Positions 2,033-38,216 of a stretch of DNA of 51,487 bases are shown here, piece by piece. The DNA is from a virus: IMG/VR virus record IMGVR_UViG_3300033156_000341, positions 1 to 51,487 of that record. One strand, 5' to 3'. The translations under genes and the position numbers were made by a program. Position 1 is the first letter of the stretch. The number at the start of each line of letters is the position of its first letter. The notes under the pieces were generated by a model. That model saw only the letters and a list, made by a program, of their open reading frames with translations. It had not been told where the DNA came from and searched no databases.

Positions 2033-2125
2033 TTAGCCTCTGATTTCTGCTCTCCTGTTACGGATGTCTGGTGCCGTTGAAACCAGCCACAAGGATATCC
2101 ACAGGAGAGCAGAATCAACGGCTAA
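2033..2125 (-). ncRNA. Structured RNA element with a predicted pseudoknot
   Basis: Between two genes, a perfect 14-bp inverted repeat (2045-2058 with 2101-2114) encloses a 42-nt loop. Inside the loop CTGGT/ACCAG forms a 5-bp hairpin. The hairpin loop sequence (minus strand TCAACGGC, 2073-2080) is complementary over 8 nt to GCCGTTGA (2115-2122), just outside the main stem, so an H-type pseudoknot can form. An alternative outer helix TTAGCC/GGCTAA competes with it. The element begins at the TAG stop of the upstream gene. It is GC-richer than its surroundings. It resembles no riboswitch or ribozyme that I can name. Confidence 0.55.
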
Positions 2126-2523
2126 TCTTTTTTCCCAAAAAATGCCCGATTTAATACCTTATTCATTTCGCTTGCTAATTTCTCATCTCCAACAACAAAT
2201 CCTTTATTGGTAGTTAAACTTTCATACGGAACCCACCATTTCCCAATTTCTCCAAAATCCACCAACATTCTTTTTCTTCCATCTCTAATTTTCTTTCCCC
2301 ATTTTCCTGTCAGTTTTTTACCGGGTCCATAAAGAGTAATGCCGTTATATCCAATTCCTACTCCTTCGGGTAATGCTTGCAATTCTTTTTTATGTTTTTC
2401 TTTATGCCATTCATTATATTTTTTCTCCATTTTCTTCTTCTTTTGATACCATTCTTTCCAAAAATCTCCCCAATCCTCCTCTGTTTTGATTCTGCGGGTA
2501 TAAATTTTAATTTTCTGTCTCAT
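2122..2523 (-). CDS. Hypothetical basic protein
   Basis: A protein of about 133 residues, rich in Lys and Trp. The N-terminal third (WGDFWKEWYQ followed by a Lys-rich helix) is probably a charged helix. The rest has a Gly-rich beta-type segment (GVGIGYNGITLYGPGKK). The start was placed at the ATG at 2523, which overlaps the previous gene by 17 nt, rather than at 2550, which would extend the overlap. The TAG stop is immediately followed by the pseudoknot element, and the frame stays open for another 36 codons past it. Function unknown. Confidence 0.7.
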   Translation of the reverse strand: MRQKIKIYTRRIKTEEDWGDFWKEWYQKKKKMEKKYNEWHKEKHKKELQALPEGVGIGYNGITLYGPGKKLTGKWGKKIRDGRKRMLVDFGEIGKWWVPYESLTTNKGFVVGDEKLASEMNKVLNRAFFGKKD

Positions 2524-2743
2524 AACTTTTCTCTCGCAAATATTCATCAATTCCTTCTATTTTATCCTGTAGGGCTTCTATTATTAAGCCTCTTTCTTCA
2601 ACCTCTCTTTGCCACATTTCTTTCTCTTCCCCCAATTCTTCTTCTGCTAACCTTTCCGCAATTACTAACTTATCCATCTCTTCCTCTAAAATCTTTTCTA
2701 ATTTTTCCTTCTTTTCTAAAAGTGTTTGTTCGTAAGTAATCAT
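2507..2743 (-). CDS. Coiled-coil protein
   Basis: A 78-residue, Glu- and Lys-rich protein that is almost entirely predicted helix (LEKKEKLEKILEEEMDKL...). No cysteine, membrane segment or catalytic motif is visible. An AAAGGTCG motif lies 27 nt upstream of the ATG. It may be a small regulator or adaptor, but nothing in the sequence decides this. Confidence 0.65.
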   Translation of the reverse strand: MITYEQTLLEKKEKLEKILEEEMDKLVIAERLAEEELGEEKEMWQREVEERGLIIEALQDKIEGIDEYLREKSYETEN

Positions 2744-2812
2744 ATTAGCCTAGATTTTATTTTATTTCTTCGACCTTTGATATTGATTTTCGGGGTACTT
2801 TGTAATTCTTTT

Positions 2813-3031
2813 TTAAATAATCTGTTCAATTTCTTTCAATCTAATGACTAAAGTTTTTCTTTTCTGTCTCAAAAATAATGCTTCGTGTTCTCCAAAATCC
2901 AATCCTCCAAAAAGATAGGTATCAACTTTCTCTAAAATGCCGTGTCTATATCTTTTCTCTCCTCTTACTTTTATCTTTACCTTTGTTCCTATTCTTGGCT
3001 TAAATAAATTTTTTGTTTGTTCTATGTCCAT
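2813..3031 (-). CDS. Hypothetical protein, SH3-like beta fold possible
   Basis: A 72-residue protein. The frame is open further upstream to 3106, but the ATG at 3031 is preferred because a variant junction motif (AAAAGTCG, 3061-3068) lies 29 nt upstream of it. The sequence has regular short beta-prone segments (TKVKIKVRGEKRYRHGILEKV, shown only in part here as GTKVKIKV and RHGILEKV), like small barrel domains. Function unknown. Confidence 0.65.
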   Translation of the reverse strand: MDIEQTKNLFKPRIGTKVKIKVRGEKRYRHGILEKVDTYLFGGLDFGEHEALFLRQKRKTLVIRLKEIEQII

Positions 3032-3096
3032 TTTATTTGTTTTAGTTAATTTAATTTTTCCGACTTTTTTAATTTTTTTGCCTTCTGTTATTCCTA

Positions 3097-3396
3097 TCAG
3101 AAACAATAATAATTTGCGTATCCTTTTTTTCCAAAATCCCTTTTTATTCTATCAAAAATTTTTCTAACTTCTTCTGCTTCCTCTTGACATACTTTTCCTT
3201 CTCTTACTTTTTCATCAAGTAAATCAGACATTCTTTTTAACTGGTGTTCCTCAATTTCAATTATTCCCCACCCGTCCATATTCAAAGTTTCCAACCCAAC
3301 TACTTCCTCTAATAGTTCCATAAAGGTTTCATCGTGCCAGAGATTAAAAGTTTCGGATTTTGAAATTTTTTCAATTTTATATGCTCTTACTGACAT
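3097..3396 (-). CDS. Hypothetical acidic protein
   Basis: A 99-residue protein, acidic in the middle (FMELLEEVVGLETL, IIEIEEHQLKRM) and helical towards the C-terminus. I recognise no family. An AAAGGTCG motif (3426-3433) lies 29 nt upstream of the ATG, between this gene and the small gene at 3439-3612. It is part of the operon behind the tandem promoters near 3.7-3.8 kb. Confidence 0.65.
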   Translation of the reverse strand: MSVRAYKIEKISKSETFNLWHDETFMELLEEVVGLETLNMDGWGIIEIEEHQLKRMSDLLDEKVREGKVCQEEAEEVRKIFDRIKRDFGKKGYANYYCF

Positions 3397-3438
3397 AGGT
3401 TTAATTTTTTATAATTTAATTTTTTCGACCTTTGAGTT

Positions 3439-3612
3439 TTAGTATGATTCTGATAATCTTTTCATTCTTCTTTGTAGTTCCTCTAACAACTCCATTTGAG
3501 AATACCCTCCTGGGTCAAGAACATCACTTTTTTCTATCCATCCATCTTTATTTATTTTTTCTATTTTTATTTTTCCGTCTCCCATTACTCTTAATTTTAT
3601 TTGTTCTTCCAT
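3439..3612 (-). CDS. Small hypothetical protein, first gene of the operon
   Basis: A 57-residue ORF that begins MEEQIKLRVMGDGKIKIEKI and ends in a helical segment (MELLEELQRRMKRLSESY). It is supported by an AAAGGTCG motif (3641-3648) 28 nt upstream of the ATG and by its position as the first gene behind the promoter at 3674-3702. Codon use matches its neighbours. The alternating hydrophobic pattern of the first half suggests a beta sheet. Function unknown. Confidence 0.65.
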   Translation of the reverse strand: MEEQIKLRVMGDGKIKIEKINKDGWIEKSDVLDPGGYSQMELLEELQRRMKRLSESY

Positions 3613-3658
3613 AGTTTTGTTTTTTTGTTTTTAATTTTTTCGACCTTTATTTGTATAT

Positions 3659-3721
3659 TGTGGATTATATTTTAGTTTAGCAGGGGTAAAAAGAGTTGTC
3701 AAGGGTTTTAGTTGTGGATAA
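3659..3721 (-). promoter_or_regulatory. Sigma70-type promoter flanked by DnaA-box-like sites (tandem promoter 1)
   Basis: On the minus strand TTGACA (3697-3702) is followed by a 17-nt spacer ending in TGC and by TAAACT (3674-3679). An exact TTATCCACA box (3713-3721) lies 10 nt upstream of the -35. A second site, TAATCCACA (3659-3667), lies just after the -10, near the expected start of transcription. It would transcribe the small-gene operon from 3612 leftwards. The paired boxes suggest control by host DnaA or by a phage protein with the same specificity. Confidence 0.75.
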
Positions 3722-3765
3722 TTTTTATATCTTTTTTAGGTTAAAATTTAAATTTATTTTTAATT

Positions 3766-3829
3766 TTGTGGGTTATATTATAAATTAGCAAAAGTAAAAA
3801 GGGTTGTCAAGAGTTTTAAGTGTGGAAAA
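3766..3829 (-). promoter_or_regulatory. Sigma70-type promoter flanked by DnaA-box-like sites (tandem promoter 2)
   Basis: On the minus strand TTGACA (3805-3810) is followed by a 17-nt spacer and TAATTT (3782-3787), with TGC just before the -10. A TTTTCCACA box (3821-3829) lies 10 nt upstream of the -35, and TAACCCACA lies just downstream of the -10 (about 3766-3774). It is about 108 bp upstream of tandem promoter 1 and nearly identical to it in layout. No gene lies between the two, so both feed the same operon. Confidence 0.7.
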
Positions 3830-3838
3830 CTCTAGAAT

Positions 3839-3873
3839 AAAAAACCGCCCTCCGAAATTGGATATAGGGCGGT
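3839..3873 (-). terminator. Intrinsic terminator of the small RNA gene
   Basis: On the minus strand ACCGCCCT (3866-3873) pairs with AGGGCGGT (3844-3851) over 8 bp, with a 14-nt loop, followed by a run of T (3839-3844). This is a textbook rho-independent terminator. It lies about 85 nt downstream of the promoter at 3957-3985 and just upstream of tandem promoter 2. Confidence 0.85.
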
Positions 3874-3950
3874 AAAAGCCGACTTTTTACAGGCACGAAC
3901 CTGCTTGAACTTGACAAACTCTTATAAAGATGACGTAATTTGCTTTAGTT
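3839..3950 (-). ncRNA. Predicted small non-coding RNA (about 110 nt)
   Basis: A consensus promoter (3957-3985) and a strong intrinsic terminator (3839-3873) define a transcription unit of about 110 nt with no ATG-started ORF. The predicted RNA has an unstructured A-rich 5' part, a hairpin CAGG/CCTG around a GGTTCGTGCC segment, a small stem AAAAG/CTTTT with a TCGG loop, and the terminator stem. Its position between the end of the late operon and the promoters of the small-gene operon suggests a regulatory RNA. It is not a tRNA: there is no acceptor stem and the T-loop-like stem has the wrong loop size. Confidence 0.7.
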
Positions 3951-3956
3951 TATTAC

Positions 3957-3985
3957 ACTATACCAAAAACAAAATATCTTGTCAA
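3957..3985 (-). promoter_or_regulatory. Strong sigma70-type promoter of the small RNA
   Basis: TTGACA (3980-3985), a 17-nt spacer and TATAGT (3957-3962) on the minus strand, with transcription expected to begin near 3950. Unlike the other promoters it has no DnaA-box-like site beside it, so it may be constitutive. Confidence 0.8.
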
Positions 3986-3988
3986 GAG

Positions 3989-4027
3989 TAAAACAAAGAG
4001 AACCGCTTTTTTTGCGGTCCTCTTTGT
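3989..4027 (-). terminator. Intrinsic terminator at the end of the late operon
   Basis: ACAAAGAG and ACCGC (3993-4006) pair with GCGGT and CTCTTTGT (4014-4027), giving 13 bp with one mismatch around a run of seven T/A. On the minus strand the stem is followed by TTTTA. It closes the lysis end of the long minus-strand operon, immediately before the small RNA promoter. The inverse orientation also has a short T run, so it could act both ways. Confidence 0.8.
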
Positions 4028-4112
4028 AAGAGCTAAATTTAGTCAGCTCTTTATTATCCTTCTATACGTAAAGGATAGTTCAACACCATCCTTCCGTACA
4101 TAAAGGATAGTC
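4028..4112 (-). repeat. Cluster of three hairpins, two of them tandem 25-nt repeats
   Basis: Two direct repeats (4056-4080 and 4088-4112) have the form ATCCTT, nine-nt loop, AAGGAT and AGT, with a period of 32 nt. Each folds into a 6-bp hairpin; the loops are related (TACGTATAG and TATGTACGG on the minus strand). A third hairpin, AAGAGCT/AGCTCTT (4028-4051), precedes the terminator. They lie in the 3' untranslated region of the acidic-protein gene and could stabilise the 3' end of the late mRNA or bind a protein. Confidence 0.6.
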
Positions 4113-4306: not shown

Positions 4307-4363
4307 AACTAATTATTAAATTAAGTTTTCATCGACCTTTAGAAAAATTTAATTTCTATCTTT

Positions 4364-4807
4364 TTATTCACTCCAACAATAATAAGTTCCCCAATTACTT
4401 TCTGGTGTTCCCCAATGGTAATCTCCTTCATTTTCAAGTAGGTAAAAAGCACAATCCCAATTATCATCGGGGTCTAACATATCTAATTCCCGTCCTAATT
4501 TTTCTTCACAATACCTCTCGGTTTTTGGAATTATCATTGCTAAACCTTGTCCATACTGGCAGCCCTTTTTATTACAGATATTTCTCCCACCCGATTCGCA
4601 TTGAATTATCTTCCACAGTTTCGTTGTTAAAGGATTATACTGAAACTGAGATATAAAACACTCTTCTAGTTTTACCCCAGACGCTCCAGAATCTTCTCTA
4701 ATAGGATTTTTATGCCCTTTATATATCCCAATACCTATAAACATCCAAAATGCCACAGAAAGGGCTAAAATGAGAATTTTAACCAGAATATTAGGTGGTT
4801 CTTTCAT
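4364..4807 (-). CDS. Membrane-anchored lytic transglycosylase-like endolysin
   Basis: A 147-residue protein. Residues about 7-29 form one membrane segment or signal anchor. The rest resembles an SLT/lysozyme-like fold: IIQCESGGR places the likely catalytic Glu at 71, followed by YGQGLAMIIPKT (family G-x-Q/M-I-P-T region) and a WDCAFYLLENEGDYHWG segment near 117-133. The domain is shorter than most and has several Cys residues that could form disulfides in the periplasm or outside. It lies next to a holin-like gene and a papain-like protease, a lysis cassette. It would cut peptidoglycan glycan strands at the end of infection. Confidence 0.75.
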   Translation of the reverse strand: MKEPPNILVKILILALSVAFWMFIGIGIYKGHKNPIREDSGASGVKLEECFISQFQYNPLTTKLWKIIQCESGGRNICNKKGCQYGQGLAMIIPKTERYCEEKLGRELDMLDPDDNWDCAFYLLENEGDYHWGTPESNWGTYYCWSE

Positions 4808-4810
4808 ACT

Positions 4811-5038
4811 TTACGGAAGGCGAAGTCCAACTTTATGTTTAAGACAATCATACACAAATATTACAACAATCAGAGCAAGTGCGGTTTGGGGGTCTGTCAA
4901 GGCATCTACACCTTCTGGAAACTGAATCTTGAAACCTAAAATAGAGGCTTCAAGGACTTGAAGAATTACTCCAACAATTGCGGCAAAAACTGGATATTTT
5001 ACTGCTTTTGTCAGAGATTTTCCTAAATCGTATGCCAT
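4811..5038 (-). CDS. Putative holin
   Basis: A 75-residue protein with two hydrophobic segments, about residues 16-38 (VFAAIVGVILQVLEASILGF) and 50-65 (ALALIVVIFVYDCL), and a short charged tail. Size, topology and position directly before the endolysin gene fit a class II holin, which forms membrane lesions and times lysis. An AAAGGTCG motif lies 26 nt upstream; it overlaps the last codons of the protease gene. The call rests on topology and context, since holins share little sequence. Confidence 0.65.
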   Translation of the reverse strand: MAYDLGKSLTKAVKYPVFAAIVGVILQVLEASILGFKIQFPEGVDALTDPQTALALIVVIFVYDCLKHKVGLRLP

Positions 5039-5060
5039 AGTAGTGTTAATTGGTTAGTTT

Positions 5061-6101
5061 TTACCGACCTTTATTTATTTTCTCAATTTCAAACGGGCTT
5101 GTCAAGGCAGTTTTCCTAATCTTCCACCAAACATAGCCATCTTTTCTAATTCCCCCCTCTAAAATCTCTGCAATCTCTCCAGGCTTTAGCCAATCTATTT
5201 GTTTTGTATTAAGACCAGGATTTTCCCTAATTCTCAATCTCCATTTCGAGAAAACGCTTTTTACCTTGTCCCCCGAATGGAATCTCAAACCTGTTTCCCT
5301 CAAATACTTCCCAGCAACCCACCCTTCTATTTTTGGTCTTTGAATGTCTAATAAAACATAGGCGTTCCAAATTTCGTGCTTGTCAAACTCATTAAAAGGA
5401 ATGTAAAAATATCCTTTATTTCCCCATTTTTTTCCCCAAGAATTTCTAACCCAAAATTTTTCGTATTCCCAATCCACTCCAACTACAGCGTGTCCGCCAA
5501 GCTCTTTTCCTCCCGGTAAAGGCAACTTTCCATCTTGTCCGATGTCTCTATAACTTTCATACCACCTCATTCCAAAACCAATAGGGGTTTTGTTTTGATA
5601 AATCGCCTGTCTAAAACTATCCAATCCTTTCGTCACTGCCCAAAAGGTCTTCCCTTTAAACTTTTCTGCTTCTTGATACGCTTCAGGCGGTGGAACATCT
5701 TTGATGTATTCTTCCCAAGTTTTTCTTCTAATATCAGGAAAGGTCTCCTCCAAACAGGCTCCGTATTTAACAACAGATTTAAAGGCATTTCTCAAATAAT
5801 CCCCCTGAATTGTCCACAGCCCGCTTATTTTTTTTGTGTTGTAGTAAATGAATTTCTGTGCTAACTTTATCTCTTTATGGTATTCCAAAGAGTTCCAATA
5901 TTCGGCAATTGCGTCTGCCATATGCGAAGTGCAGGTCCCCCAATTCTGCTTTTGAATAGATGTCATTTTATCTCTCAAACTAAATACATCGGGTAAAGCA
6001 ACAACTTTAGGCTGAATTTCCGCCAATTGGAAATCACGAATATCTACTGGGTCAGGTCCAAGTAAGCCTAATTCTTCTTTTTTTCTCCAAAACCAAATCA
6101 T
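5061..6101 (-). CDS. Papain-family (C1) cysteine protease with C-terminal SH3-like domain
   Basis: A 346-residue protein. Catalytic features of C1 peptidases are visible: QNWGTCTSH (active Cys57), GGHAVVGVDW (His204) and VRNSWGKKWG (Asn220 with the NSWG signature). The spacing Q-to-C is one residue shorter than in papain. Residues about 255-330 look like a bacterial SH3 domain (LRIRENPGLNTKQIDWL, GYVWWKI), a module that usually binds cell-wall peptides. No signal peptide is obvious. Its place in the lysis cassette suggests it attacks cell-envelope or S-layer protein; a role as a virion protease is the alternative. It overlaps the upstream zinc-ribbon gene by 4 nt. Confidence 0.85.
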   Translation of the reverse strand: MIWFWRKKEELGLLGPDPVDIRDFQLAEIQPKVVALPDVFSLRDKMTSIQKQNWGTCTSHMADAIAEYWNSLEYHKEIKLAQKFIYYNTKKISGLWTIQGDYLRNAFKSVVKYGACLEETFPDIRRKTWEEYIKDVPPPEAYQEAEKFKGKTFWAVTKGLDSFRQAIYQNKTPIGFGMRWYESYRDIGQDGKLPLPGGKELGGHAVVGVDWEYEKFWVRNSWGKKWGNKGYFYIPFNEFDKHEIWNAYVLLDIQRPKIEGWVAGKYLRETGLRFHSGDKVKSVFSKWRLRIRENPGLNTKQIDWLKPGEIAEILEGGIRKDGYVWWKIRKTALTSPFEIEKINKGR

Positions 6102-6595: not shown

Positions 6596-6857
6596 CGCAG
6601 TCAATATAGCTTGGGTGGTTCGCTTCTCTGCCCAAAATCAGGATTTTCACCAGTTTTCTGATTTCCTTGAATGTCTCATTCAATGCCCTTTGCAGTTGCA
6701 GGAATTCCTGTTGCAAGCGGAGAATTTCCTGGTTTGCCTGTTGCTTGACGATTTTCGCCCTCGCGTCAATGATTTCCATTTTCTGAGTGATTTTCTCTGC
6801 CTCTATGAGTCTCTCAACGATTTTTTTCTCTACTTCTTCTTTGCTACTCATCTTCAT
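6576..6857 (-). CDS. Coiled-coil protein of the island
   Basis: A 93-residue protein with a long amphipathic helix from residue 5 to about 70, rich in Gln, Glu and Leu (QQEFLQLQRALNETF). It ends in a short charged tail. The ATG overlaps the stop of the metallophosphoesterase exon by 4 nt, and GGAGGGTGA lies just upstream as a ribosome-binding site. Its operon position suggests it works with the metallophosphoesterase, perhaps as a partner or scaffold; this is inference from context. Confidence 0.7.
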   Translation of the reverse strand: MKMSSKEEVEKKIVERLIEAEKITQKMEIIDARAKIVKQQANQEILRLQQEFLQLQRALNETFKEIRKLVKILILGREANHPSYIDCDEGKKE

Positions 6858-7054
6858 TCACCCTCCACTTTTGGTGTTAGGTTCAAGGTGAACTGCCAAG
6901 TTCGTGGTCTCTTAGGAGAAGTTCCGAAGTAAATCTGCTCTGCCTTGGTCAGAACTCCATACTTTTTCCAGGCATACATTCCTTTCGGAACCCAAGAGCC
7001 GTTGACAAGGGTTATTGCCCGAGAACTCAATGGTATTTCCATCGCTTGATGAAA
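6854..7054 (-). CDS. Metallophosphoesterase, exon 2 (C-terminal part)
   Basis: This is the 3' exon of the phosphoesterase gene whose 5' exon is at 7917-8675. It starts with TTT CAT CAA (F-H-Q) and encodes 66 residues. Joining the exons restores ...CIGH|FHQAMEIP..., the GHxH metal-binding motif of calcineurin-like phosphoesterases, and a 319-residue protein. As a separate ORF it opens with ATG at 7057, but that ATG is formed by the last intron bases (ATG ends in the intron's terminal G), so it is unlikely to be a real start. The split ends exactly at codon boundaries. Confidence 0.85.
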   Translation of the reverse strand, partial: FHQAMEIPLSSRAITLVNGSWVPKGMYAWKKYGVLTKAEQIYFGTSPKRPRTWQFTLNLTPKVEGE

Positions 7055-7916
7055 CATATTTAGTCCCCAATTACTTGGGGTATGGACTCTCCCTTCATCC
7101 TTGATTTCATAATCTTATTTTGTTTGCGGGAATTACATCTTCTACACAATGGTTGCAGATTATCTATATGGTTTGTTCCTCCTTTACTTAATGGAATAAT
7201 GTGGTCTATTGTAATATCTTCTGTAGAACCACACATTTGACATTTTCCTCCAAGTCTTTTAAGTTTTTCTTCCCATTGTTTTTTATCTATTTTTCCAATC
7301 TTAGGATTCCTTTTTCTGTATTCATAAACTCTCTTACTCCATCTTCCTTTCTCTGTTTTTCTGTATCTTGCTTGGGCTTTTCTATTGATTTCTCTCACTT
7401 TTTCCCTATTTCTTTCTGTATATTCTCTCATTCTCTGAATTATTTTTTCCCTCATTTTAAGGTATCGCTCTCTCCAATATTTTTGTCTTTTCTTTTTAAT
7501 CTCTTCTTTATGCTTTTGATAGTATTCTTGATTGTATTGTCGTATCTTCTCTCTATGTCTCTCACGATATCTTTTTGAGTATTTTCCTTTGTATTTTTTC
7601 CGTTCTGCCTTCCCTCTACATCTAACAGAACAATATTTCGGATAATTATAACTATTTCCTTTTTTCCAAGGATGTTTAGCCGTAAATTCTTTCCCACAAA
7701 CAACACATTTGATTATAGGTAATTTCTTCATTACCTTATTATATCTCCATATCCTGATGAAATCAAGGAGGTCGCCGTCGAGTCTCTACACCTTCCCTTT
7801 GAATATTCAAAGGGCTTGGCTCGCGATTACCCCTGCTTTTTAGCAGTAGGGCTTTCCCGAATTTGACGACATTTTTTTCTATGGATTACTCCATAGGGAC
7901 ACTTTCACAATGGATT
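7055..7916 (-). ncRNA. Group I self-splicing intron (862 nt) in the metallophosphoesterase gene
   Basis: The 5' exon ends GGACAT and pairs with an internal guide GTGTCC (P1), with the T.G wobble at the splice site that group I introns need. TGAAA directly before the guide pairs with TTTCA at the start of exon 2 (P10). Further helices are seen: P2 CTATGGA/TCCATAG, P3 GTCGTC/GACGGC, a P5-like CTGC/GCAG with flanking CCC/GGG, P6a CCCTTTGAAT/ATTCAAAGGG, and an R-like segment GGTGTAGAGACTCGACGG followed by an S-like AGATATAATA. The intron ends in G and closes with hairpin CCCCAA/TTGGGG. It carries an HNH ORF. I cannot assign the subgroup. Confidence 0.9.
7060..7731 (-). CDS. Intron-encoded HNH homing endonuclease
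   Basis: A 223-residue, very basic protein. An N-terminal zinc-knuckle pair (CVVCGKEF near 9-16 and CSVRC near 34-38) is followed by a long Lys/Arg-rich helical region with repeated YRxRxxxK units (about 45-145), likely DNA-binding. The C-terminal HNH domain has CQMCG, DHIIPLSKGG and NLQPLCRRCNSRKQNK, with the DH-N-H pattern and two CxxC zinc pairs (about 165-215). It would cut intronless alleles and spread the intron. Its stop codon lies 5 nt from the intron 3' end, so ORF and splice-site hairpin overlap. Confidence 0.92.
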   Translation of the reverse strand: MKKLPIIKCVVCGKEFTAKHPWKKGNSYNYPKYCSVRCRGKAERKKYKGKYSKRYRERHREKIRQYNQEYYQKHKEEIKKKRQKYWRERYLKMREKIIQRMREYTERNREKVREINRKAQARYRKTEKGRWSKRVYEYRKRNPKIGKIDKKQWEEKLKRLGGKCQMCGSTEDITIDHIIPLSKGGTNHIDNLQPLCRRCNSRKQNKIMKSRMKGESIPQVIGD

Positions 7917-8675
7917 ATGTCCGATGCATTCGATGTCAAACTCCATCTCTGCCCTTCTTTGCCTGCTTTGGCGGACTATTCCGTAATACGGAATGCCCAG
8001 CCAAGACCTAATCGTTGCCCCGTGATGCAAGAAATATTGCCAATTGTAGATTTTCGTCCTGAAAAACCAAGCCTCTGGCGTCTGAATTTCAACCCTTGGC
8101 TCGTTCCTGAAGACCTGTTGGAGCATCTTTCCGATTAGGAAGTCAAAGTTGTTGTAGAACGGCTCTGGAAGGTTGGCTCTCCTCGTCATTCTTCCGTGAT
8201 TCCCTGCAATGTTTATCATATTTATGTTTTTGAACATCGTCAAGAGTTCCTGAATCATATTCGTCAGAAGCTTCACCGTGAAAAGCATCTGGTTTCCCAC
8301 ACCTGCCTCAATGAAAAACCTTTGGTTCTGTATAATTATGTCCCCTTCCACCAAATCGCCGAGGGCAAAAATATATAGTGTGTCAATGTCGTAGCTTTTA
8401 GAAAGCAGTTGGTTTATCCCCGCTATGCTGTCCACCAGCCTGTTGGCTTCCTTTACCGCTATCTCCGTGTTATAGGTTAGCGTCGCCTTTCCAGTGTCCA
8501 AATCGACAAAGTAGTTCTCAAGACCTATATGCATATCCGACAACATCAGAACTGCCGATTCCTTGAGTTTTCCCCGAAAAACCTTTCTTCTTTTCGGAAT
8601 TTTGATAAGGCTCTTTTCGTTTCTCAATTCGTCTATCAGCGTTCTACCAAACCTTTCCAATTCAATCTTTTCCAA
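7917..8675 (-). CDS. Metallophosphoesterase (calcineurin-like), exon 1
   Basis: Exon 1 gives 253 residues of a calcineurin-like phosphoesterase. Visible metal-binding motifs are DMH (Asp47, His49), GDLVEGD (near 107-113), GNHGR (near 158-162) and HHGA (near 219). The last motif, GHFH, is completed only after splicing to 6854-7054. Without splicing the frame would add NPL and stop. Substrate is unknown; Mre11/SbcD-type nuclease or phosphodiesterase activity are possibilities. The gene starts with TTG, 7 nt after AAGGAGGTG, a strong Shine-Dalgarno site unlike most genes of the phage. It overlaps the small ORF upstream by 14 nt. Confidence 0.9.
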
Positions 8676-25018: not shown

Positions 25019-25222
25019 CTAATCACCATAACTATCAGAATCCTTTGCCGCTTCCCTTACCAGTAAAATGCTTTTTTGGGTTTCTATAATCTGATAAGGT
25101 TTAGCGTGTTTAATTTTGATACGAATCTCTCCGTACTTTGTCTTAATAATATGGCTTATCAGTTTAATAAATTCGTAATCTTCTTCAAACTTCAATATGA
25201 CATTTTTTCCTTCAAACTCCAT
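25019..25222 (-). CDS. Small hypothetical protein
   Basis: A 67-residue protein, beta-alpha pattern (GKNVILKFEEDYEFIKLISHIIKTKY), with Lys-rich middle. It overlaps the glycosyltransferase upstream by 11 nt and ends just before the head-operon promoter. No motif. Function unknown. Confidence 0.65.
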   Translation of the reverse strand: MEFEGKNVILKFEEDYEFIKLISHIIKTKYGEIRIKIKHAKPYQIIETQKSILLVREAAKDSDSYGD

Positions 25223-26087
25223 ATTTTTTGCCTTCCTTTATTTGTTTTATTAGTTCTTTAAACTCCTTTACACTAATTCTTACATCATACTTCTCTCTTA
25301 TTTCTTTTAACCTTTTTGGGGCTTCTTTGTTCCTTTCTTCTGGGTCAAGAAACCTTCTAACATCTTCTGGGGTTCTGGCAACAGGCATACCCAAAGCCCA
25401 AGCTGTATAGACCTTATTCGGGGACTTAAACCTTCCTCGTGGAATATCATCTCTGGGAGGTAATAATACAAAATCGTGTTCTACTATAATTTTATTAAAA
25501 TCAAAACCAGGTTTACCCCATTCAAATTTTAAGTTTCTGTCTGCCTTTGAGTACGGAGGTCTGAAATTAGAAAGAACTGTCAACTCTAACCTATACTTTC
25601 TTAACAGCCCTATCGTTCTATCCAAACACTTTGCATTATGAGAATAACCAAACCAGATTACTTTTTTTGCTCGACCTTTATGAACTTTTTTGTATTTCTC
25701 GTAATTATGAAATTCTAAATCTTGTCTGTCTGGAATAAAAACCACCGGCTTTTTTCCAGCAAATTTTCTTATTTCTTTTGCTAATTCCTCTGTCGAAGTA
25801 GTTACAGCGTCGCAATTATCAATAATTTGTTTTATTGGCACGGTATCTAACCAATCTGGGTCACACATATCAAGAATCTTAATTCCTTTAAACGCTAAAA
25901 CATAATCTAACCAATAACATTTTTGGAAAATAACAGTTTCATATTTTGCTCCTTGCTGAAATATCTCTGCTTCATCCCAATACTTAACAAGCCAATGACC
26001 CCTTATTCTTGAACTTCCTACATTTTGTCTTCCGTGCCATTGTTCAAAAAGTAAAATTCCGACTGGTTTTCCGTTATATACTGACAT
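25212..26087 (-). CDS. Glycosyltransferase, GT-B type
   Basis: A 291-residue protein with GT4-like C-terminal features: RAKKVIWFGYSHNAKCLDR (donor domain strand), FVLLPPRDDIPRGRFKSPNKVYTAWALGMPVARTPEDVR, where the conserved Glu/Gly-rich nucleotide-binding segment is degenerate. The N-terminal half (SRIRGHWLVKYWDE, KILDMCDPDWLD) is the acceptor domain. Likely adds a sugar to a virion or host glycan. It is one of five glycosyltransferases in the block. Substrate unknown. Confidence 0.78.
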   Translation of the reverse strand: MSVYNGKPVGILLFEQWHGRQNVGSSRIRGHWLVKYWDEAEIFQQGAKYETVIFQKCYWLDYVLAFKGIKILDMCDPDWLDTVPIKQIIDNCDAVTTSTEELAKEIRKFAGKKPVVFIPDRQDLEFHNYEKYKKVHKGRAKKVIWFGYSHNAKCLDRTIGLLRKYRLELTVLSNFRPPYSKADRNLKFEWGKPGFDFNKIIVEHDFVLLPPRDDIPRGRFKSPNKVYTAWALGMPVARTPEDVRRFLDPEERNKEAPKRLKEIREKYDVRISVKEFKELIKQIKEGKKYGV

Positions 26088-26157
26088 AGAATACCCCCTA
26101 AAACCTGCTAAAACCCGCTCTAAGAAGTTTTTTTGAAGTTTTAGGATATTTTATGTT

Positions 26158-27238
26158 TCATTTGACTTTTAAAACAAATTTAATTAAATCAAACCAATCT
26201 TTTCTAAATCTTTTACCATTAAAAAGTTTTTTTGCTGTTTCTTTCCCTTTTTGTCCAATTTCAACTGATTTTTGATAATTAAATATACAATCAGCAATCA
26301 CTTTTGCGGCTTCTTGAGGATTAACATTTACCAGAAATCCATTTACCCCATTTTTGATAAATCTATCAGCGTCCTGATAAGGAGTAGTAACTACACAACA
26401 ACCACTAAACATTGCTTCTGTTCTGGTCCTTGGCATTGGAGACCCTATTGTTGGATTAAAATAAACTAATGACCTCCCTAAAAAATTCCTATAATCGTCC
26501 CAACTTGCACAGTATTTATCTTGCCCAATCCAAACTAATTCAACTCCATATTTTCTTCTAAGAACTTGTCTTGTTTCTCTAAAAAATCTCCTTCCATAAT
26601 ACTTTTCTCCTATCCCACCAGGGGAGATAAAAGTCACCACTCTTGGCTCTTTTGGTAAATCCCACCAATCTTCTGGGTCTAATCCGTGTATAATAGTTTT
26701 TCCAAACCCCCACATTTCTTTTGCTTTATGAGAATTTACTACCATCACTGATACTCCTTCCATCAATTTTTTCATTTCTCTTCTTGCCCATTCTTCTCCC
26801 GCTTCTTCCGTATTTCCAAGTCCCGCCTCCTGAGCAAATTGAGTAAAAACTTCGGGATAAACAGGTGTGCCGTGATTTATTACAATTATTGGAATATCTT
26901 TAATCTGTGCCTTAACCTCTCTAAAAACCATCGACTTCCCATAAGCAATTCTTGGAGATAAACATTGCTGGTCAACGTGTAAAATAGCCAAATCATATTT
27001 CCCCGGCTCATAGTAAGGTACCCATTTTACGTGTTTGGGTAGTGGTCTCGCTTGTTCTCCCCATTTCCTTGTGTGTTGAATCAAATAATACCACTCAATT
27101 GGAAATCCGTTTTCTGGATTTAACTTAAGTAGTTCATATTGGTGACTAACAAGGTCAGTGCCAGGGCATACTAAAGATACGGATTGTCCGTTCTCGTTCT
27201 GCCCCAGCTGATTTTATTTTGGTATTTATTTTATTCAT
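26158..27238 (-). CDS. Glycosyltransferase with a frameshift near the N-terminus
   Basis: The long ORF (26158-27084, TTG) continues upstream without a start. The first exon-like part starts at ATG 27238 (27 residues, ending RIFSMPWH) and stops at TGA (27155-27157), while the +1 frame goes on DLVSHQYELLKLNP... Skipping one base (T27157) joins them as SMPWHDLVSHQYELLKL, which reads as a normal family N-terminus. A junction motif (27273-27280) 34 nt upstream supports the start at 27238. The joined protein has 359 residues, with GKYDLAILHVDQQC and a GT-B donor domain. Sequencing error, real mutation or programmed +1 shift are all possible. Confidence 0.75.
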
Positions 27239-27279
27239 ACCAAAACTATTAAGTTAATTTGTTTTGTTAGTATGACCTT

Positions 27280-28143
27280 TTATTTTATTGGTCTTAATTG
27301 AAAATATAAAACTTCTCCCCCTTTTTCTTCTTTCTTAATAATTTCGAATTTATGTTTTGGATTTATATCGTAATACTTCGGTCTCGCCTTAGTAAAATAA
27401 CAAAAGGTATTTTCTGTAAAAAAACTTTGATGCGTTGGGTCTCTGAATGAAGTTTCACTCCCCGCAAGAGGAACAAAAACATCTAATATTCCATCTTTTT
27501 TTAATACTCTATGAATTTCCCTCATTACAAACAATAAATTATAAGGAGCTAAATGTTCTAAAACACTATGAGCTTTTACTAACATGCAACTATTATCAGA
27601 AAAAGGAATACCTTTTGTGATATCCCAAACGATTTCTTGCCCATAATCTTCCCAATCAATCCCAATCATATCTCTATGCTTTTTCCTACCACAACCTATA
27701 TCAAGTTTTAAATTATCTCCCCATATCTTAACTTTTTCCTTAATCGGTTTCATTTTTAAATGAATATCCATTCTATCATTTACCACTAACTCTATTAACT
27801 CCCAGGGTCTTTCAACTACATCTTTATTAAATAATCCATCAAACGAATGCTCATCAAAAAATCTTTTATGTCTAAGTGCATAAGCCCTTTCGTGGTTTTT
27901 ATGAGGGACAATAATCCAGGCAACTCCATCTGGTTTAAGAACTCTCCAGAATTCATTTATTACAAACATCACATCATCCAAATGTTCTAAAACGTGCTGG
28001 CAAAAAATTTCGTCTACTGTATTATCAGAAAAAGGAAGGCATTGTTTCTCTATGTCTCTAACATATTCTTGCCCGTAATCTTCTTTATCAATTCCAATAA
28101 ATCCTTCCCTTTTATTTTTTCCACAACCTACATCAAGCTTCAT
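27280..28143 (-). CDS. Tandem SAM-dependent methyltransferase
   Basis: A 287-residue protein with two methyltransferase domains in series. Each opens with a motif I glycine loop, KLDVGCGKNKREGFIGID (start) and KLDIGCGRKKHRDMIGID (near residue 147), and each contains a motif like FSDNTVDEIFCQHVLEHL or FSDNSCMLVKAHSVLEHL. The second part of each copy has a LKPDGV or LKKDGI segment. It probably arose by duplication. Substrates are likely sugars, by context. Confidence 0.85.
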   Translation of the reverse strand: MKLDVGCGKNKREGFIGIDKEDYGQEYVRDIEKQCLPFSDNTVDEIFCQHVLEHLDDVMFVINEFWRVLKPDGVAWIIVPHKNHERAYALRHKRFFDEHSFDGLFNKDVVERPWELIELVVNDRMDIHLKMKPIKEKVKIWGDNLKLDIGCGRKKHRDMIGIDWEDYGQEIVWDITKGIPFSDNSCMLVKAHSVLEHLAPYNLLFVMREIHRVLKKDGILDVFVPLAGSETSFRDPTHQSFFTENTFCYFTKARPKYYDINPKHKFEIIKKEEKGGEVLYFQLRPIK

Positions 28144-28424
28144 ACTCTTTTTGACCTTCTTTCAAGGTCTTTTTCATAATCAATATTTACTTCCCAGAAA
28201 TCTTTGTCCCAGTCAAACTTATACTCGTGAAGTTTTTTATCCATTTTCTTTGCCATCTCATAAGCAGTTTTTAACCTAACCCGCATTTCTTCTCTCACAG
28301 TTTCATTCCCAACAGCAAAAGTTAAATCATAAAGCTCTCTTAAAACCTCGCAAATAGTTCTCCTTTTATCTGCGTATTTATCAATATTGTCTAAAATTTT
28401 GTCTGTAATATTTTTAGTCACCAT
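28140..28424 (-). CDS. Hypothetical helical protein
   Basis: A 94-residue protein, charged and helical (LDNIDKYADKRRTICEVLREL, AYEMAKKMDKKLHEYKF). It overlaps the tandem methyltransferase by 4 nt and the bifunctional glycosyltransferase by 11 nt. Such small genes often lie between glycosyltransferases in phage polysaccharide clusters. Function unknown. Confidence 0.65.
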   Translation of the reverse strand: MVTKNITDKILDNIDKYADKRRTICEVLRELYDLTFAVGNETVREEMRVRLKTAYEMAKKMDKKLHEYKFDWDKDFWEVNIDYEKDLERRSKRV

Positions 28425-29973
28425 ACATTTGCCAAAGTTTAAATTTGCTTTTCCAAATTTCTTTTTTCTTTCCCCTTTTCTTGGCTTTTAGAATTTGCTT
28501 TGCTCTAGCGAAAGGAAGAAATCGAAACTTAAAACCCATTTTTCCAAAACGAGTTTTAATTTCCTGTGTCATTCCTCCATATCTATCAATCCTCTCGCAA
28601 AACATTCCACAATCTATTAAAAACCTTCTCCTTATTGCACTAAAATTTTCTACAAATCCTTTTCTTACCCCTTTATTTCCATAAAACCAAACTCTTTCAG
28701 GAGTAGATAAAACGTGTTTGGTAAATTCGAATATCGCCTCTGGGTAAGGTTTTAAACGACTATCACAGAATACTATTATCTCCCCATCTGCCTCTATTAT
28801 TCCCATATTTCTCGCCATTGCTAAATTATAGCCGGTCCTATTTGTATTAAGGTATTTTATTGGGTATCTAACTTTTTTCCTCATTTGCTTTACAGCTGAT
28901 TCCGTTCCATCTGTTGAGTTATCATCACACACTATCGCTTCTATATTATCATATGTCTGCTCATCAAGGGCTTCAAGAATTTCCAACACCTGCTCTTTTC
29001 TGTTATAAATTGGAATAATCACTGAAACCAACGGATTTTCAAAAAGTACCTGATTGTACAATTTGGCATACTGTTTAGCCATCTTAATATCTGAAAAATT
29101 TTTAACAGTTTGCCAAGCCTTTTCTCTAATTTCTAACCTCCTTTCCTTGTTCTCTACCAATGCTCTTAATTCATTTTTCAAATCTTCTACGTCTTCTGTT
29201 TGTCCTTGCCTAACAACCATATTCTCTTCGTCATAAATATCAGGAACTAACCCTATGTTTCTTGTAAGTACTGGAACCCCAATAGCCATTGCTTCTAAGA
29301 TAGGCATTGTGCCACATTCAAAATTATCAACAGAATTGCATACCAAAACTCCCATTTTTTTATACATCTCAGGTAATTGCTCTCTCCCTACATAACCTAC
29401 AAAATCAACGCCAATTTCTTGAACCTCTTTCATATAATTGGGACTTGAAACCTTACCCACTAAAAGAAAATGATAACCAAGTTCTTTACACGCCTGGGCT
29501 ACTTCTTTTATTCCTTTATGTCCTTCTATCCTAAAGGCTACCATCCCTACTGTTTTGTTTTCGGGGTCATAATCATCATTAAACTCAAACAAATCTAAAT
29601 CTACTGCGTGGGGAATATGAATAGAACCAGGCAATCTTACTTGTTGGGTTTTGTTCTTAACAACTACTGCATTAAATAATCTGAACCAATCTTCTTTATC
29701 TAAATCATACGGGTTATGATGAGTTAAAATTTTCGGTTTTTCTCTCAACCAAGGGAATTTATCTAAAAGAACCAGAGCAGATTTCCAATATTCAAAATCT
29801 ATCAAATCAGCCCTTTTAGCCATTTCTTCAAACAATTTCAAATCTTCAACACTATACCGTTTCGGGTGAAATGGAAGAATATCAATAAGCAAATGCTCAT
29901 TATGCTTCTGTATCATCTCAGCAAGAATATCCACCGCAGACCCAGGTGTGATACTAACTATCAATATTCTCAT
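28414..29973 (-). CDS. Bifunctional glycosyltransferase, GT4 plus GT2 domains
   Basis: A 519-residue protein. Residues about 1-290 form a GT-B enzyme: KTVGMVAFRIEGHKGI, GVLVCNSVDNFECGTMPILEAMAIGVPVLT (E-x7-E region). Residues about 310-490 form a GT-A enzyme of family 2: PLVSVIIPIYNRKEQVLEIL, AIVCDDNSTDGTE and GEIIVFCDSRLKP (D-x-D-like). Two glycosyl transfers in one polypeptide are typical for synthesis of repeated glycans. Located in the block between terminase and portal. Confidence 0.85.
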   Translation of the reverse strand: MRILIVSITPGSAVDILAEMIQKHNEHLLIDILPFHPKRYSVEDLKLFEEMAKRADLIDFEYWKSALVLLDKFPWLREKPKILTHHNPYDLDKEDWFRLFNAVVVKNKTQQVRLPGSIHIPHAVDLDLFEFNDDYDPENKTVGMVAFRIEGHKGIKEVAQACKELGYHFLLVGKVSSPNYMKEVQEIGVDFVGYVGREQLPEMYKKMGVLVCNSVDNFECGTMPILEAMAIGVPVLTRNIGLVPDIYDEENMVVRQGQTEDVEDLKNELRALVENKERRLEIREKAWQTVKNFSDIKMAKQYAKLYNQVLFENPLVSVIIPIYNRKEQVLEILEALDEQTYDNIEAIVCDDNSTDGTESAVKQMRKKVRYPIKYLNTNRTGYNLAMARNMGIIEADGEIIVFCDSRLKPYPEAIFEFTKHVLSTPERVWFYGNKGVRKGFVENFSAIRRRFLIDCGMFCERIDRYGGMTQEIKTRFGKMGFKFRFLPFARAKQILKAKKRGKKKEIWKSKFKLWQMYGD

Positions 29974-29982
29974 AATTTTCTA

Positions 29983-30144
29983 TTATAATTTTTCGTAATC
30001 ATTTATTGAGAGAGTAATCTCATAACGGGAAAAATACCTATTCAGTTTGAACAATCCTAATTTCTTAGCGGCTTTTAGTACTTCTTCTGGGGTCAACTCT
30101 TTCTTTGATACAGTTTTAGTTATTTGTTTCTTTTTTCTTGCCAT
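29983..30144 (-). CDS. Small basic protein
   Basis: A 53-residue ORF, MARKKKQITKTVSKKEL then a helix (TPEEVLKAAKKLGLFKLNRYF). The start lies 1 nt after the stop of the methyltransferase at 30146, and the stop 9 nt before the glycosyltransferase at 29973. Codon use matches. Too short for family assignment; a DNA- or ribosome-binding role is only a guess from its charge. Confidence 0.6.
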   Translation of the reverse strand: MARKKKQITKTVSKKELTPEEVLKAAKKLGLFKLNRYFSRYEITLSINDYEKL

Positions 30145-30145
30145 A

Positions 30146-30697
30146 CTATTTATAGCAATGAGCTATTAGTTTATAAATATTGTTATGGAACTCGACCTTT
30201 TTAAATCCAGCCTCTTGTAGGTTTTCTCTCAAAATTTCTTCGGTAAAAATATTTCTATGAAAATCGTATTCGTGTTTTTGGGCTCCAGTAAAAGCAAACA
30301 GCCACCTTCTTGGATTTATCTTTGCTTTCCCCTCACATTTAGGACACCAAGGATTTGGTTTAAAATCTTCCATCCTTTCTGCTTTATGCGGAACACAGTC
30401 ACAAATCAATCCTTTAGTATAATATTCCATCATTTTTCCACAATCAGGAACTTGTACTACCAATCTCCCACCAGGTTTTAAAATTCTATACCATTCTTTT
30501 AACACCTTCATTGTATCACGAAATGAAATATGTTCCAAGACCTCTATCGCTACTATTTCTTCTACTGGTTCAGTTACAAAACGATAAGGCACATTTGTCA
30601 AGTCCCATAGAATATCTGTATTTCCGTCCCAAGGCAAGATATCTACATTAGTAAATCCCTCTATTCTTTTCTTTCCACTCCCCAAATTTAATTTCAT
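30146..30697 (-). CDS. SAM-dependent methyltransferase
   Basis: A 183-residue protein, type I methyltransferase fold: KLNLGSGKKRIEGFTNVD (motif I), DILWDLTNVPYRF, VEEIVAIEVLEHISFRDTMKVLKEWYRILKPGGRLVVQVPD (motifs IV-V), and a short CxxC (CPKCEGK) near residue 117, unusual for the family. It probably methylates a sugar of the virion or host glycan. It overlaps the next methyltransferase by 4 nt. Confidence 0.85.
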   Translation of the reverse strand: MKLNLGSGKKRIEGFTNVDILPWDGNTDILWDLTNVPYRFVTEPVEEIVAIEVLEHISFRDTMKVLKEWYRILKPGGRLVVQVPDCGKMMEYYTKGLICDCVPHKAERMEDFKPNPWCPKCEGKAKINPRRWLFAFTGAQKHEYDFHRNIFTEEILRENLQEAGFKKVEFHNNIYKLIAHCYK

Positions 30698-31305
30698 CTT
30701 TTTATTGCCTTTACTATGTATCCAATTACATTGTGTTCGTTAAAATTTTTTGACGGATGCATTCCTTCTTTCCTAAACCAATCTATTAAATTCGGTCCAT
30801 CTAATCTAATTTTAATCCCGCCAGCCCTCCTAACATTACTTTTTTCTAATCGTGGTATCATTTCAACAATTTGAAATCCAGACTCTTTCATCAATTTCTC
30901 AATCCCCCATTTAGTATAACGTAAATAATCATAGGGGGCAGGTTCGTGATGAGGGTAAATAAAAGGAAAAGAAATGTACAAAATTCCACCCTTTTTCAAA
31001 AACCCCCACAAGTTTCTCATTGCCACTAAAGGATTATATAAATACTCTGTTACTTCAAGACAAAAAACCACATCCCATTGTCCAGTTATCTCTCTACCAC
31101 AATCTGGATTATTCAAATCATAAACATAATCTGGTTCTTGTCTCATTTTTTCTAATCTGTTATCAAGTATCTTATACTCTTTAACCTCCCAGCTTTTTGT
31201 CCTTCCTTTTACAGGATTAGCACCTCCACCAGCATCTAAAACCTTATCTGCTTTTACATCAACAGTTTTTAACCAATCTTCTAATTGTTCTCGGTAGTAA
31301 GACAT
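30694..31305 (-). CDS. SAM-dependent methyltransferase
   Basis: A 203-residue protein. Motifs: KVLDAGGGANPVKGRTKSWE (motif I), CGREITGQWDVVFCLEVTEYLYNP, LWGFLKKGGILYISFPFIYPHH. The DAGGG in place of the usual DxGCG is a mild variant. It overlaps the glycosyltransferase upstream by 25 nt. Part of the glycan block. Confidence 0.85.
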   Translation of the reverse strand: MSYYREQLEDWLKTVDVKADKVLDAGGGANPVKGRTKSWEVKEYKILDNRLEKMRQEPDYVYDLNNPDCGREITGQWDVVFCLEVTEYLYNPLVAMRNLWGFLKKGGILYISFPFIYPHHEPAPYDYLRYTKWGIEKLMKESGFQIVEMIPRLEKSNVRRAGGIKIRLDGPNLIDWFRKEGMHPSKNFNEHNVIGYIVKAIKR

Positions 31306-32156
31306 AATTTTTTAAAAACTTCTAAATATTTTTTACCCATCGCCTCTAATGTTAAATCTTGTCTACTGGCTCTTAAGATTTCCAAAGCACTACTTTCATC
31401 ATCATCCCCCGAATATAAAATTTCTAAACCACATAACTTTGCCTCAATCAACGTATTACTACAAGCCTCTAAGTAATAAGGATACAACAAATAATCAGCA
31501 CTTCTATATATTTTAGCCATTTCTTCGGGATTTTCAATAATTCCGAAATATCGGTATCTTTTCTCTGCTCCGCCAAAGAAATCAAATTTATATTCTATCT
31601 GTTGCGGACTAAACTTTCCAACAATCCATAAATGAGCATTAGGGTTTTTAAAGTAAATTCTCTGAAAATCATACCAAGCCTTCTCCCACCTTTTTGTTTC
31701 ATTGGTACTAACCCTTGAGTAAAGGAACTGAGGGTCTCCTTCTCTTGATATTTTTTCTCCTTCTGGCTTAAAAATTTCTGTATCTGCTCCATTCAATATA
31801 ACAGGTCCATCCTTTTTGATAAAAGGCATAATCCATCTTTTAGCCCATTCTGATTGGTAAATTACAACGTCAGCCAATTTAGCAAAATCATACAATCTAC
31901 TTGTCCCAGTATTTCTATTGCGACTATTTCTTGGAATATTATCAACTCTTAAAACGATTTTTTTTCCTAATTCTTTAGCCCTTAAAACTTCTTGGCGTTC
32001 TGCCAAAGTGAGTCCTGGTATAAAATATATATCACAATCATTTAATTCGTGAGAGAACTCTATAGAACCCCGTAAGGCTTTCTGGATGTTTCTGGTAAAC
32101 GTCCAACCTCCTCCAATTCCGCTTAATGCTCTTGGAGGTAAATAAACCTTAATCAT
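31281..32156 (-). CDS. Glycosyltransferase family 4-like
   Basis: A 291-residue GT-B protein. The C-terminal half has RVSTNETKRWEKAWYDF, LWIVGKFSPQQIEYKF, a IYRSADYLLYPYYLEACSNTLIEAKLCGLEILYSGD stretch (E-x7-E donor-binding region), typical of family 4. The N-terminus has LPPRALSGIGGGWTFTRNIQ, the Gly-rich loop. It overlaps the deacetylase start by 4 nt. Likely transfers a sugar from a nucleotide donor. Confidence 0.85.
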   Translation of the reverse strand: MIKVYLPPRALSGIGGGWTFTRNIQKALRGSIEFSHELNDCDIYFIPGLTLAERQEVLRAKELGKKIVLRVDNIPRNSRNRNTGTSRLYDFAKLADVVIYQSEWAKRWIMPFIKKDGPVILNGADTEIFKPEGEKISREGDPQFLYSRVSTNETKRWEKAWYDFQRIYFKNPNAHLWIVGKFSPQQIEYKFDFFGGAEKRYRYFGIIENPEEMAKIYRSADYLLYPYYLEACSNTLIEAKLCGLEILYSGDDDESSALEILRASRQDLTLEAMGKKYLEVFKKLCLTTENN

Positions 32157-32836
32157 ATTTTTCTGGGATAGTTAATTTTTTTGAGTCCCTCACTCATATA
32201 CCACAAAAAATCATCAAGAAATTCCCACTGATTGTATTTTTCTACTTCCCAACCGTGACAAAATAACTCAAACCTCCCACCTTCTTGCAATACTTTATCA
32301 AATAATTCATAAGCCCATTCAATCCAAGTTCTTTCTTTATACTCTTTTCTATCAGGGTGAACGTGAATAGTTGGATTGGTCTCAAAAGGGTCTTTCGGAA
32401 ACTCTATACAAAGAATATTTGTAGTTCTGGCTTCCTTAAATCCAACTCGTTCAACAACTTCTTTTACTCTATCATTGAATTTCCCTCCCGGATAGCAGAA
32501 TTTGGTCACTGGTTTTTTTACTATTCTTTCTAACAAAGCCTTAGACCCTGCTATCTCTTCTACTAGTTCATTATCTTCTAACCTTTTCAAATCTTCGGGA
32601 TGTGTTAATGTATGAGCACCAATCTCAAACAACTCTCTCATTGTTTTACATAGCGGGCAAGTTCCAATTCCAGACAATCTTTTTATTTGGGCTTCTGACA
32701 ATTCACAAACCTTAGGAGGAATATAGAAAACTGCTGGAATTTTATACTTCAGCAATAAATCACCCACCCCTAAATCGTATTGGCTTCCATCATCTACGCT
32801 TACGAGAAATTTTCTTTTTCTGTTTCTCATACTCAA
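32153..32836 (-). CDS. Polysaccharide deacetylase (NodB-like)
   Basis: A 227-residue protein of the carbohydrate esterase 4 type: FLVSVDDGSQYD (the TFDD-type motif 1, D-D), ELFEIGAHTLTHPEDL (motif 2, H-x3-H), FCYPGGKFN (motif 3, RYPGG-like) and HVHPDRKEY. The family removes acetyl groups from N-acetylated sugars, with a divalent metal held by Asp-His-His. It starts at 32836 or 32830 (MRNRKRKFLV), overlapping the upstream coiled-coil gene by 41-47 nt. Here it could modify a virion or host glycan. Confidence 0.88.
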   Translation of the reverse strand: MSMRNRKRKFLVSVDDGSQYDLGVGDLLLKYKIPAVFYIPPKVCELSEAQIKRLSGIGTCPLCKTMRELFEIGAHTLTHPEDLKRLEDNELVEEIAGSKALLERIVKKPVTKFCYPGGKFNDRVKEVVERVGFKEARTTNILCIEFPKDPFETNPTIHVHPDRKEYKERTWIEWAYELFDKVLQEGGRFELFCHGWEVEKYNQWEFLDDFLWYMSEGLKKINYPRKI

Positions 32837-33170
32837 ACACCTTGCTTGGATTCTTAACGCATTCTTCTAATACCTCTACCAATTCTTTTGCTTTCTCAAT
32901 TGTATCTCCGATAAAAGCAAGATTGTTTGAAGCCTCCTGTAATTCTTTAAGTTCTTTTTCTAAAAGAATAATTCTTTCTTTTGTTTTTGTTGATTTACCC
33001 TTCATTACTCTCGCTACATCTAACTCACTTTGTATCCTTTTTATCCTTTTTCCCAAATTAGGATACTTAACAAACCTGAAATACCAATCAAAATACAATT
33101 TAATTAAATTATCTTTTTTATCTTCAAGTACTTCTTTCAAAACTCTCCTCGCTCTTTTGATATCTCGCAT
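32790..33170 (-). CDS. Coiled-coil hypothetical protein
   Basis: A 126-residue, helical, basic protein (MRDIKRARRVLKEVLEDKK at the start; KTKERIILLEKELKELQEAS in the middle). No enzymatic motif. It overlaps both neighbours, by 34 nt upstream (epimerase) and 47 nt downstream (deacetylase). Unknown function, conserved position suspected but not known. Confidence 0.65.
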   Translation of the reverse strand: MRDIKRARRVLKEVLEDKKDNLIKLYFDWYFRFVKYPNLGKRIKRIQSELDVARVMKGKSTKTKERIILLEKELKELQEASNNLAFIGDTIEKAKELVEVLEECVKNPSKVFEYEKQKKKISRKRR

Positions 33171-34848: not shown

Positions 34849-34852
34849 AGAT

Positions 34853-36412: not shown

Positions 36413-36932
36413 ACATTTTCTTTTCCGTTATTTGAATTTCAGGGGGAACTTCTTTAATAATACCTAATCTAGCAAATTCCTCACAAATTGTTTTATACAC
36501 ATCAGCCGACGCCTTGACTAAGTCTATAGCAAACTTCGGCACGATTGAGGTCTTCCCAAGAGTTTTGTTGGCACTTTCTATCATTTGAGTTACCAAGCTC
36601 CATAATTTAATTCCCTCCATTGCCGGGTCAAATTGTTTTGCTAATTTCTTTCTTAATTCCTCTGGATAGAGAGTAGATTTTACCGCCTTGTGATATTCCT
36701 TCGGTAAATACTTTCTTCTGTAATTATCTATTGTCCTAGCGGAAGGGTGGTCTTCATTCGGGTACAACCTTTTTAATTCATTCGCTATCATTCTACTTGA
36801 CCACCTTCGCTCAATAATCCACTCATCAATCTCATCCTTGTGCGGGCTAGCGTGAACTTTTGTTTTAAACCCTGACCTCTTAATCTCGGTTGCCTTTTCT
36901 AAATTTTTTAAATCTGACAATCTTCTAGCCAT
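36258..36932 (-). CDS. Putative terminase small subunit
   Basis: A 224-residue protein just upstream of the large subunit. The N-terminal part has an HTH pattern (DEIDEWIIERRWSSRMIANELKRLYPNEDHPSARTIDNYRRKYLP), as in DNA-recognition domains of small subunits. The middle is helical and the C-terminus is acidic. Its 3' 155 nt overlap the large-subunit frame. The position and HTH support the call; the sequence is divergent. Confidence 0.7.
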   Translation of the reverse strand: MARRLSDLKNLEKATEIKRSGFKTKVHASPHKDEIDEWIIERRWSSRMIANELKRLYPNEDHPSARTIDNYRRKYLPKEYHKAVKSTLYPEELRKKLAKQFDPAMEGIKLWSLVTQMIESANKTLGKTSIVPKFAIDLVKASADVYKTICEEFARLGIIKEVPPEIQITEKKMYDPEEFKRKVEKFVLLQKEIERIKKVEKGASGELGETISEGEVSGEHGTND

Positions 36933-36980
36933 ACCTCATTTCAATTTTGATTACTTCGTTTATATCTTTGTCACTATATT

Positions 36981-37712: not shown

Positions 37713-37764
37713 TCATTTTCGCCTTCCTCTTATACATTTAACCAATGTAAATTTTCGGGTTTTA

Positions 37765-38214: not shown

Positions 38215-38216
38215 AT

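Follow-up and report, generated by a model that had tools for sequence, protein, structure and literature searches.

We describe a predicted group I intron that interrupts the catalytic GHxH motif of a phage metallophosphoesterase (MPPE), and consider it likely that this is a mobile element which carries its own HNH endonuclease, homes to the codons of that motif and is able to enter remote MPPE families. The window, that is, the whole stretch of DNA analysed, is the 51,487-base IMG/VR virus record IMGVR_UViG_3300033156_000341, which carries tailed-phage genes (portal, PF04860; terminase, phrog_38). As an earlier note on this DNA had claimed, an 862-nt intron separates the H and the F of GH/FH, where the slash marks the insertion point. 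A related intron occupies the same motif point in an MPPE of a different family, on contig IMGVR_UViG_3300015194_000008 (L089; its longer stretch is L197).

The position of the splice joint was evaluated by enumeration. Candidate joints at which exon 1 has T, and the intron G, as its last base numbered 192 (7905-7959 x 7000-7074), and 7917/7054 was the only one to provide both a 6-bp P1 with the U.G pair and a P10 of 5 bp or more. It is also the sole in-frame join that gives GHFHQ. The proposal that P1 and P10 fix the splice sites is thereby upheld. Joining the exons restores the MPPE reading frame in a product of 319 aa, and the last base of the intron is G (omega-G). The spliced protein matches phrog_284 (exonuclease) over residues 14-304, spanning the joint, with an E value of 3.7e-39; the alignment covers profile positions 107-386 of 398, and the N-terminal ~100 positions are missing in the window protein. 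The motifs SDMH, GD, GNH, HG and GHFH are all present, as the earlier note had it, with metal-motif residues D47/H49, D107, N159/H160, H218 and H253/H255. Among relatives the motif residues are invariant or near-invariant, DxH excepted. The spliced protein had no Pfam match at E 0.1, PF00149 included, and no match in a PDB sequence search. Because it has no PF00149 match itself, yet is linked by profile comparison to the L197 protein, which does (2.4e-6), the window MPPE is, as placed by these profiles, a divergent branch of the calcineurin-like metallophosphoesterases. Read through without splicing, exon 1 enters the intron as GHNPL and then a stop.

Table 1. Coordinates of the intron, its helices and the flanking exons in the window.
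Feature	Coordinates	Strand	Evidence or remarks
Group I intron, 862 nt, ends in omega-G	7055..7916	-	RF00028 56.8 bits; unique P1/P10 joint; compensatory changes vs L197
Exon 1 of MPPE	7917..8675	-	residues 1-253, ends ...ECIGH; open frame from TTG 8675, AAAGGAGGT upstream
Exon 2 of MPPE	6854..7054	-	residues 254-319, starts FHQAMEI...; joint restores frame; aligns with intronless relatives
P1 exon strand GGACAT	7917..7922	-	pairs with 7897-7902; U.G at splice site
P1 internal guide strand GTGTCC	7897..7902	-	sequence; pairs with 7917-7922
P10 intron strand GTGAAA	7903..7908	-	pairs with exon 2 TTTCAT, 7049-7054
P2 hairpin	7880..7895	-	three compensatory pair changes vs L197
P3 5' strand GTCGTC	7865..7870	-	pairs with 7774-7779
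P7 5' strand GACTC	7780..7784	-	pairs with GAGTC 7085-7089; C-G to U-A in L197
P8 5' strand CCTTGATTTCAT	7757..7768	-	pairs with 7099-7110 (ATGAAATCAAGG)
P9 hairpin CCCCAA-GTAA-TTGGGG (CCCCAAGTAATTGGGG)	7065..7080	-	C-G to U-A in L197
Intron-encoded HNH endonuclease ORF, 223 aa	7060..7731	-	in P8 loop; Pfam HNH_5 and HNH

The Rfam search that had been proposed as a check matched RF00028 on the minus strand at 7926-7726, scoring 56.8 bits where the gathering score is 50 (whole-window E 7.6e-12). The Rfam alignment sets P8 and P7' wrongly, with P8 too early, because the HNH ORF fills the true P8 loop; the strands of the true P8 are those in Table 1. P4 is present with one G.G mismatch. With P1 and P10 in place, core helices that covary with those of L197, a terminal G and a restored gene, the element is, by its predicted fold, a group I intron.

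The ORF within the intron matches the Pfam families HNH_5 (PF14279; 4.2e-16) and HNH (PF01844; 9.7e-16). Its final ~16 codons overlap P8', P7' and P9, and overlap of a nuclease gene with core elements is already known from phage introns (PMC11878797, PMC3428280). In the region 7700-7770, the start codon of the ORF sits in a GGTAAT/ATTACC hairpin, and the ORF is immediately preceded by a TTGATT-17-TATAAT site (7766-7738). Both features recall the control of intron endonucleases at translation or at a promoter, but each is within what chance would give; the sigma-70-like site was rejected as a signal, with 7 such sites found and 5.4 expected by chance. A second HNH gene in the window (HNH_3 and NUMOD3; 37765-38214) adjoins a ParB-like gene and is probably a free-standing homing endonuclease. 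At 25212-42725 lies a big block of genes that by eye resemble those for glycosyltransferases, methyltransferases and NAD-dependent sugar epimerases; such a block, with terminase genes embedded in it, is unusual for a 51-kb tailed phage.

The second intron was reached by a scan of virus contigs that used only the P7/P3' core (GGTGTAGAGACTNNACGGC) and ignored the host gene; it returned at least 119 matches in many genes, L089 among them. Similar intron cores are carried by more than 100 virus contigs, and the largest recurrent sets among the matches listed (L076-L194) comprise 26, 18 and 11 contigs. Compared with the window HNH protein, that of L089 gave an E value of 1.1e-35, the next best among the matches listed being 1.2e-7; the HNH homologs of the window and L197 introns align at 43.8% over 176 aa (E 4e-41). 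The L197 intron (2784-3511, 728 nt) scores 40.5 bits with RF00028, under the gathering score, and splits its MPPE as ...VVMGH/AHKC..., so that exon 1 ends in VVMGH. The spliced L197 protein matches phrog_7339 across the joint (E 1.6e-40), and its uninterrupted relatives include 24 phage records, six of which were aligned. Searching with an exact pattern of GGNCAT, guide and core gave no copy besides L089 in the IMG/VR virus contigs and no match in seven genomes from the phylum of one metagenome-assembled genome (MAG). The known intron-bearing copies are two, the second being one metagenomic contig.

A further insertion was considered as another cross-family case and, because Rfam gave no group I match for it, was not counted. 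In L198 (IMGVR_UViG_3300045118_000261, 2081-4034) an HNH gene lies between the ParB and methyltransferase parts of one gene. Its product is the nearest other HNH protein to that of the window (66% over 95 aa), the 66% identity falling in its C-terminal half. It may be an intron that escaped recognition, or the gene may have been inserted in some other way.

Comparison of the two viruses places the similarity in the introns. Of 200 aligned core positions, 158 (79%) are identical, whereas pairwise BLAST of the two spliced MPPEs gave only E 0.016, which is not significant, and an ORF comparison of the window with the L197 stretch found no match at E 0.01 for the MPPE exons. The ORF matches that were obtained lie within the introns or on their antisense strands, save for a second short HNH ORF of the L197 stretch (4355-4603; E 0.002). 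Profile comparison does relate the two MPPEs (E 2.9e-11) and sets GHFH on GHAH, with the GHxH motifs in the same columns. Between the introns, seven paired positions show double compensatory changes (three in P2 and one each in P7, P8, P9 and P10), three a single compensated change and two a broken pair, with 39 unchanged, a count from hand-set helix pairs in two sequences that supports the fold and is not a statistical test. P10 changes in step with the exon, pairing TTTCAT with GTGAAA in the window and (g)CTCAC with GTGAG(g) in L197. Likeness in the 5' flank is confined to a short stretch (AT[CG]GGACAT), and in the 3' flank only 5 of 9 bases agree. Near the MPPE, both viruses have genes for a papain-type cysteine protease and for a small membrane protein resembling holins (window 4811-6101; L197 563-1672); the holin-like genes and the L197 protease were assigned by eye, and neither the proteases nor the holin-like proteins gave a mutual BLAST match.

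Intronless relatives, for which the earlier note had suggested a search, are plentiful. Relatives of the window MPPE that align over their full length number 138 phage records, 63 virus contigs and 3 bacterial MAG contigs. At GHxH the phage records examined, the 3 MAG contigs and at least 63 virus contigs are uninterrupted, and no intron at this point was seen in any of the relatives examined; the virus contigs were found with a pattern spanning the insertion site, which makes interrupted copies undetectable in that set, and the phage-record and MAG sets are free of this bias. The DNA of the empty site is near-identical in some relatives, for example ATAGGACAT/TTTCATCAG in L045 and GGGGCAT/TTTCATCAA in L031. 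Scans of IMG/VR for close relatives with the joined MPPE, the HNH protein and the terminase gave no match. A query built by aligning exon 1 and L016 found nothing in IMG/VR and three uninterrupted relatives in bacterial genomes. There was no blastn match of the gene and intron region to phages, and none of the intron to plasmids.

The mechanism that we consider likeliest is the conventional one for mobile introns. Self-splicing from the mRNA would keep the phage gene usable, its product being an MPPE akin to DNA-repair exonucleases. Alleles without the intron would most probably be cut or nicked by the HNH enzyme at the GHxH codons, and repair of the cut DNA would then copy the intron into them. 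The insertion site lies in codons fixed by metal binding (GGnCAy/nnnCAy), with homing and guide sequences presumably centred on GGACAT/nnnCA. Because the catalytic site constrains this sequence, the same intron lineage could have entered two or more remote MPPE families. The simplest account of the shared GHxH site would be horizontal movement between such families, and the recurrence of a related intron at this motif suggests that it tracks a conserved motif rather than one gene. A stronger version, in which the intron and its HNH gene form a lineage specialised on the GHxH of the metallophosphoesterase fold, homing across the superfamily while P10 adjusts to each gene, is tentative; we find it nearly balanced and do not favour it.

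The main rival to horizontal movement is independent landing, in which a mobile intron is confined to the alleles of its own gene family and the L197 intron reached the same codons separately from a shared pool of phage introns. The similar cores in many unrelated genes, noted above, mean that related introns land widely, and active-site codons are favoured targets in general. However, the HNH protein of L089 is by far the nearest to that of the window among the matches listed, its intron lies at exactly the homologous GH/xH point, and HNH gene and core are shared jointly, so that we regard separate arrival as unlikely. Descent of the intron from an ancestor shared by both MPPE families would fit the two GHxH sites being homologous columns of one fold; it is the least probable of the readings considered, since the introns are far more alike than the exons and intronless relatives abound in both families. 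Scarcely more credible is a decayed intron that no longer splices and leaves a split, inactive gene: the mismatch in P4 is consistent with decay, but all core helices, both splice-site helices, the exon frames and the 223-aa HNH ORF are intact.

The earlier note had also raised the idea that splicing switches the enzyme on, and this found no specific support. The unspliced product would be a 256-aa protein without the last metal ligand and the 66 C-terminal residues, the enzyme becoming active after splicing; in keeping with this, exon 1 reads into a stop, and translation of the HNH ORF could compete with folding of the P8', P7' and P9 segments that it overlaps. However, any intron in a coding gene leaves the unspliced product incomplete. 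Neither a regulatory element nor a conserved signal was found, and the intronless relatives indicate that the enzyme does not need the intron. Introns of this kind commonly contain an in-frame stop shortly after their start (PMC3984707), and overlap of ORF and core is likewise common in phages (PMC3428280, PMC11878797). A regulated switch is therefore very improbable, and we retain horizontal movement between MPPE families as the preferred reading.

Phage introns of several kinds offer points of comparison. The HNH introns of phage DNA polymerase genes (SPO1 I-HmuI, SP82 I-HmuII, Bastille I-BasI and Pf-WMP3 I-PfoP3I; PMC3428280) are like that of the window in that the HNH ORF overlaps the core and the host gene has a conserved active site, and the same polymerase position is occupied by introns in widely divergent phages. 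They differ in that this reuse concerns one protein family, whereas the window and L197 introns lie in MPPEs of two remote families; in Pf-WMP3, moreover, the ORF lies in P6a rather than P8 (PMC3428280). Some 61 nt of the L197 core are 80.6% identical to the K1F-type DNA polymerase intron (NC_007456; E 5e-3), which differs in sitting in another gene and in being alike over this core segment only. The phi-PA3 intron (PMC11620839, as summarised in PMC11878797) is likewise a group I intron of a phage and encodes an HNH nuclease, which in that account acts against a competitor's essential intronless gene; it sits in another gene, for RNA polymerase. Members of PHROG 284 and PHROG 7339 (exonuclease and DNA repair exonuclease MPPEs), which match the spliced window and L197 proteins, respectively, across their joints, were without an intron at GHxH in those examined, unlike the window and L197.

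The description of the insertion as unusual holds in part. Active-site codons are a frequent location of group I introns and their endonucleases (PMC3943268, PMC2988022), so that the choice of site is habitual. A literature search that covered few subscription journals found no group I intron reported in a phage MPPE or DNA-repair-exonuclease gene. What looks new is only the host gene and the spread across families.

Homing introns are usually regarded as parasites specific to one allele. Were a single lineage to follow a catalytic motif through families that are otherwise nearly unalike, active-site codons would form a reservoir of target sites, and this motif-following would explain how an intron survives after it has saturated the gene in which it began. 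The window and L197 provide a concrete pair in which this may be tested.
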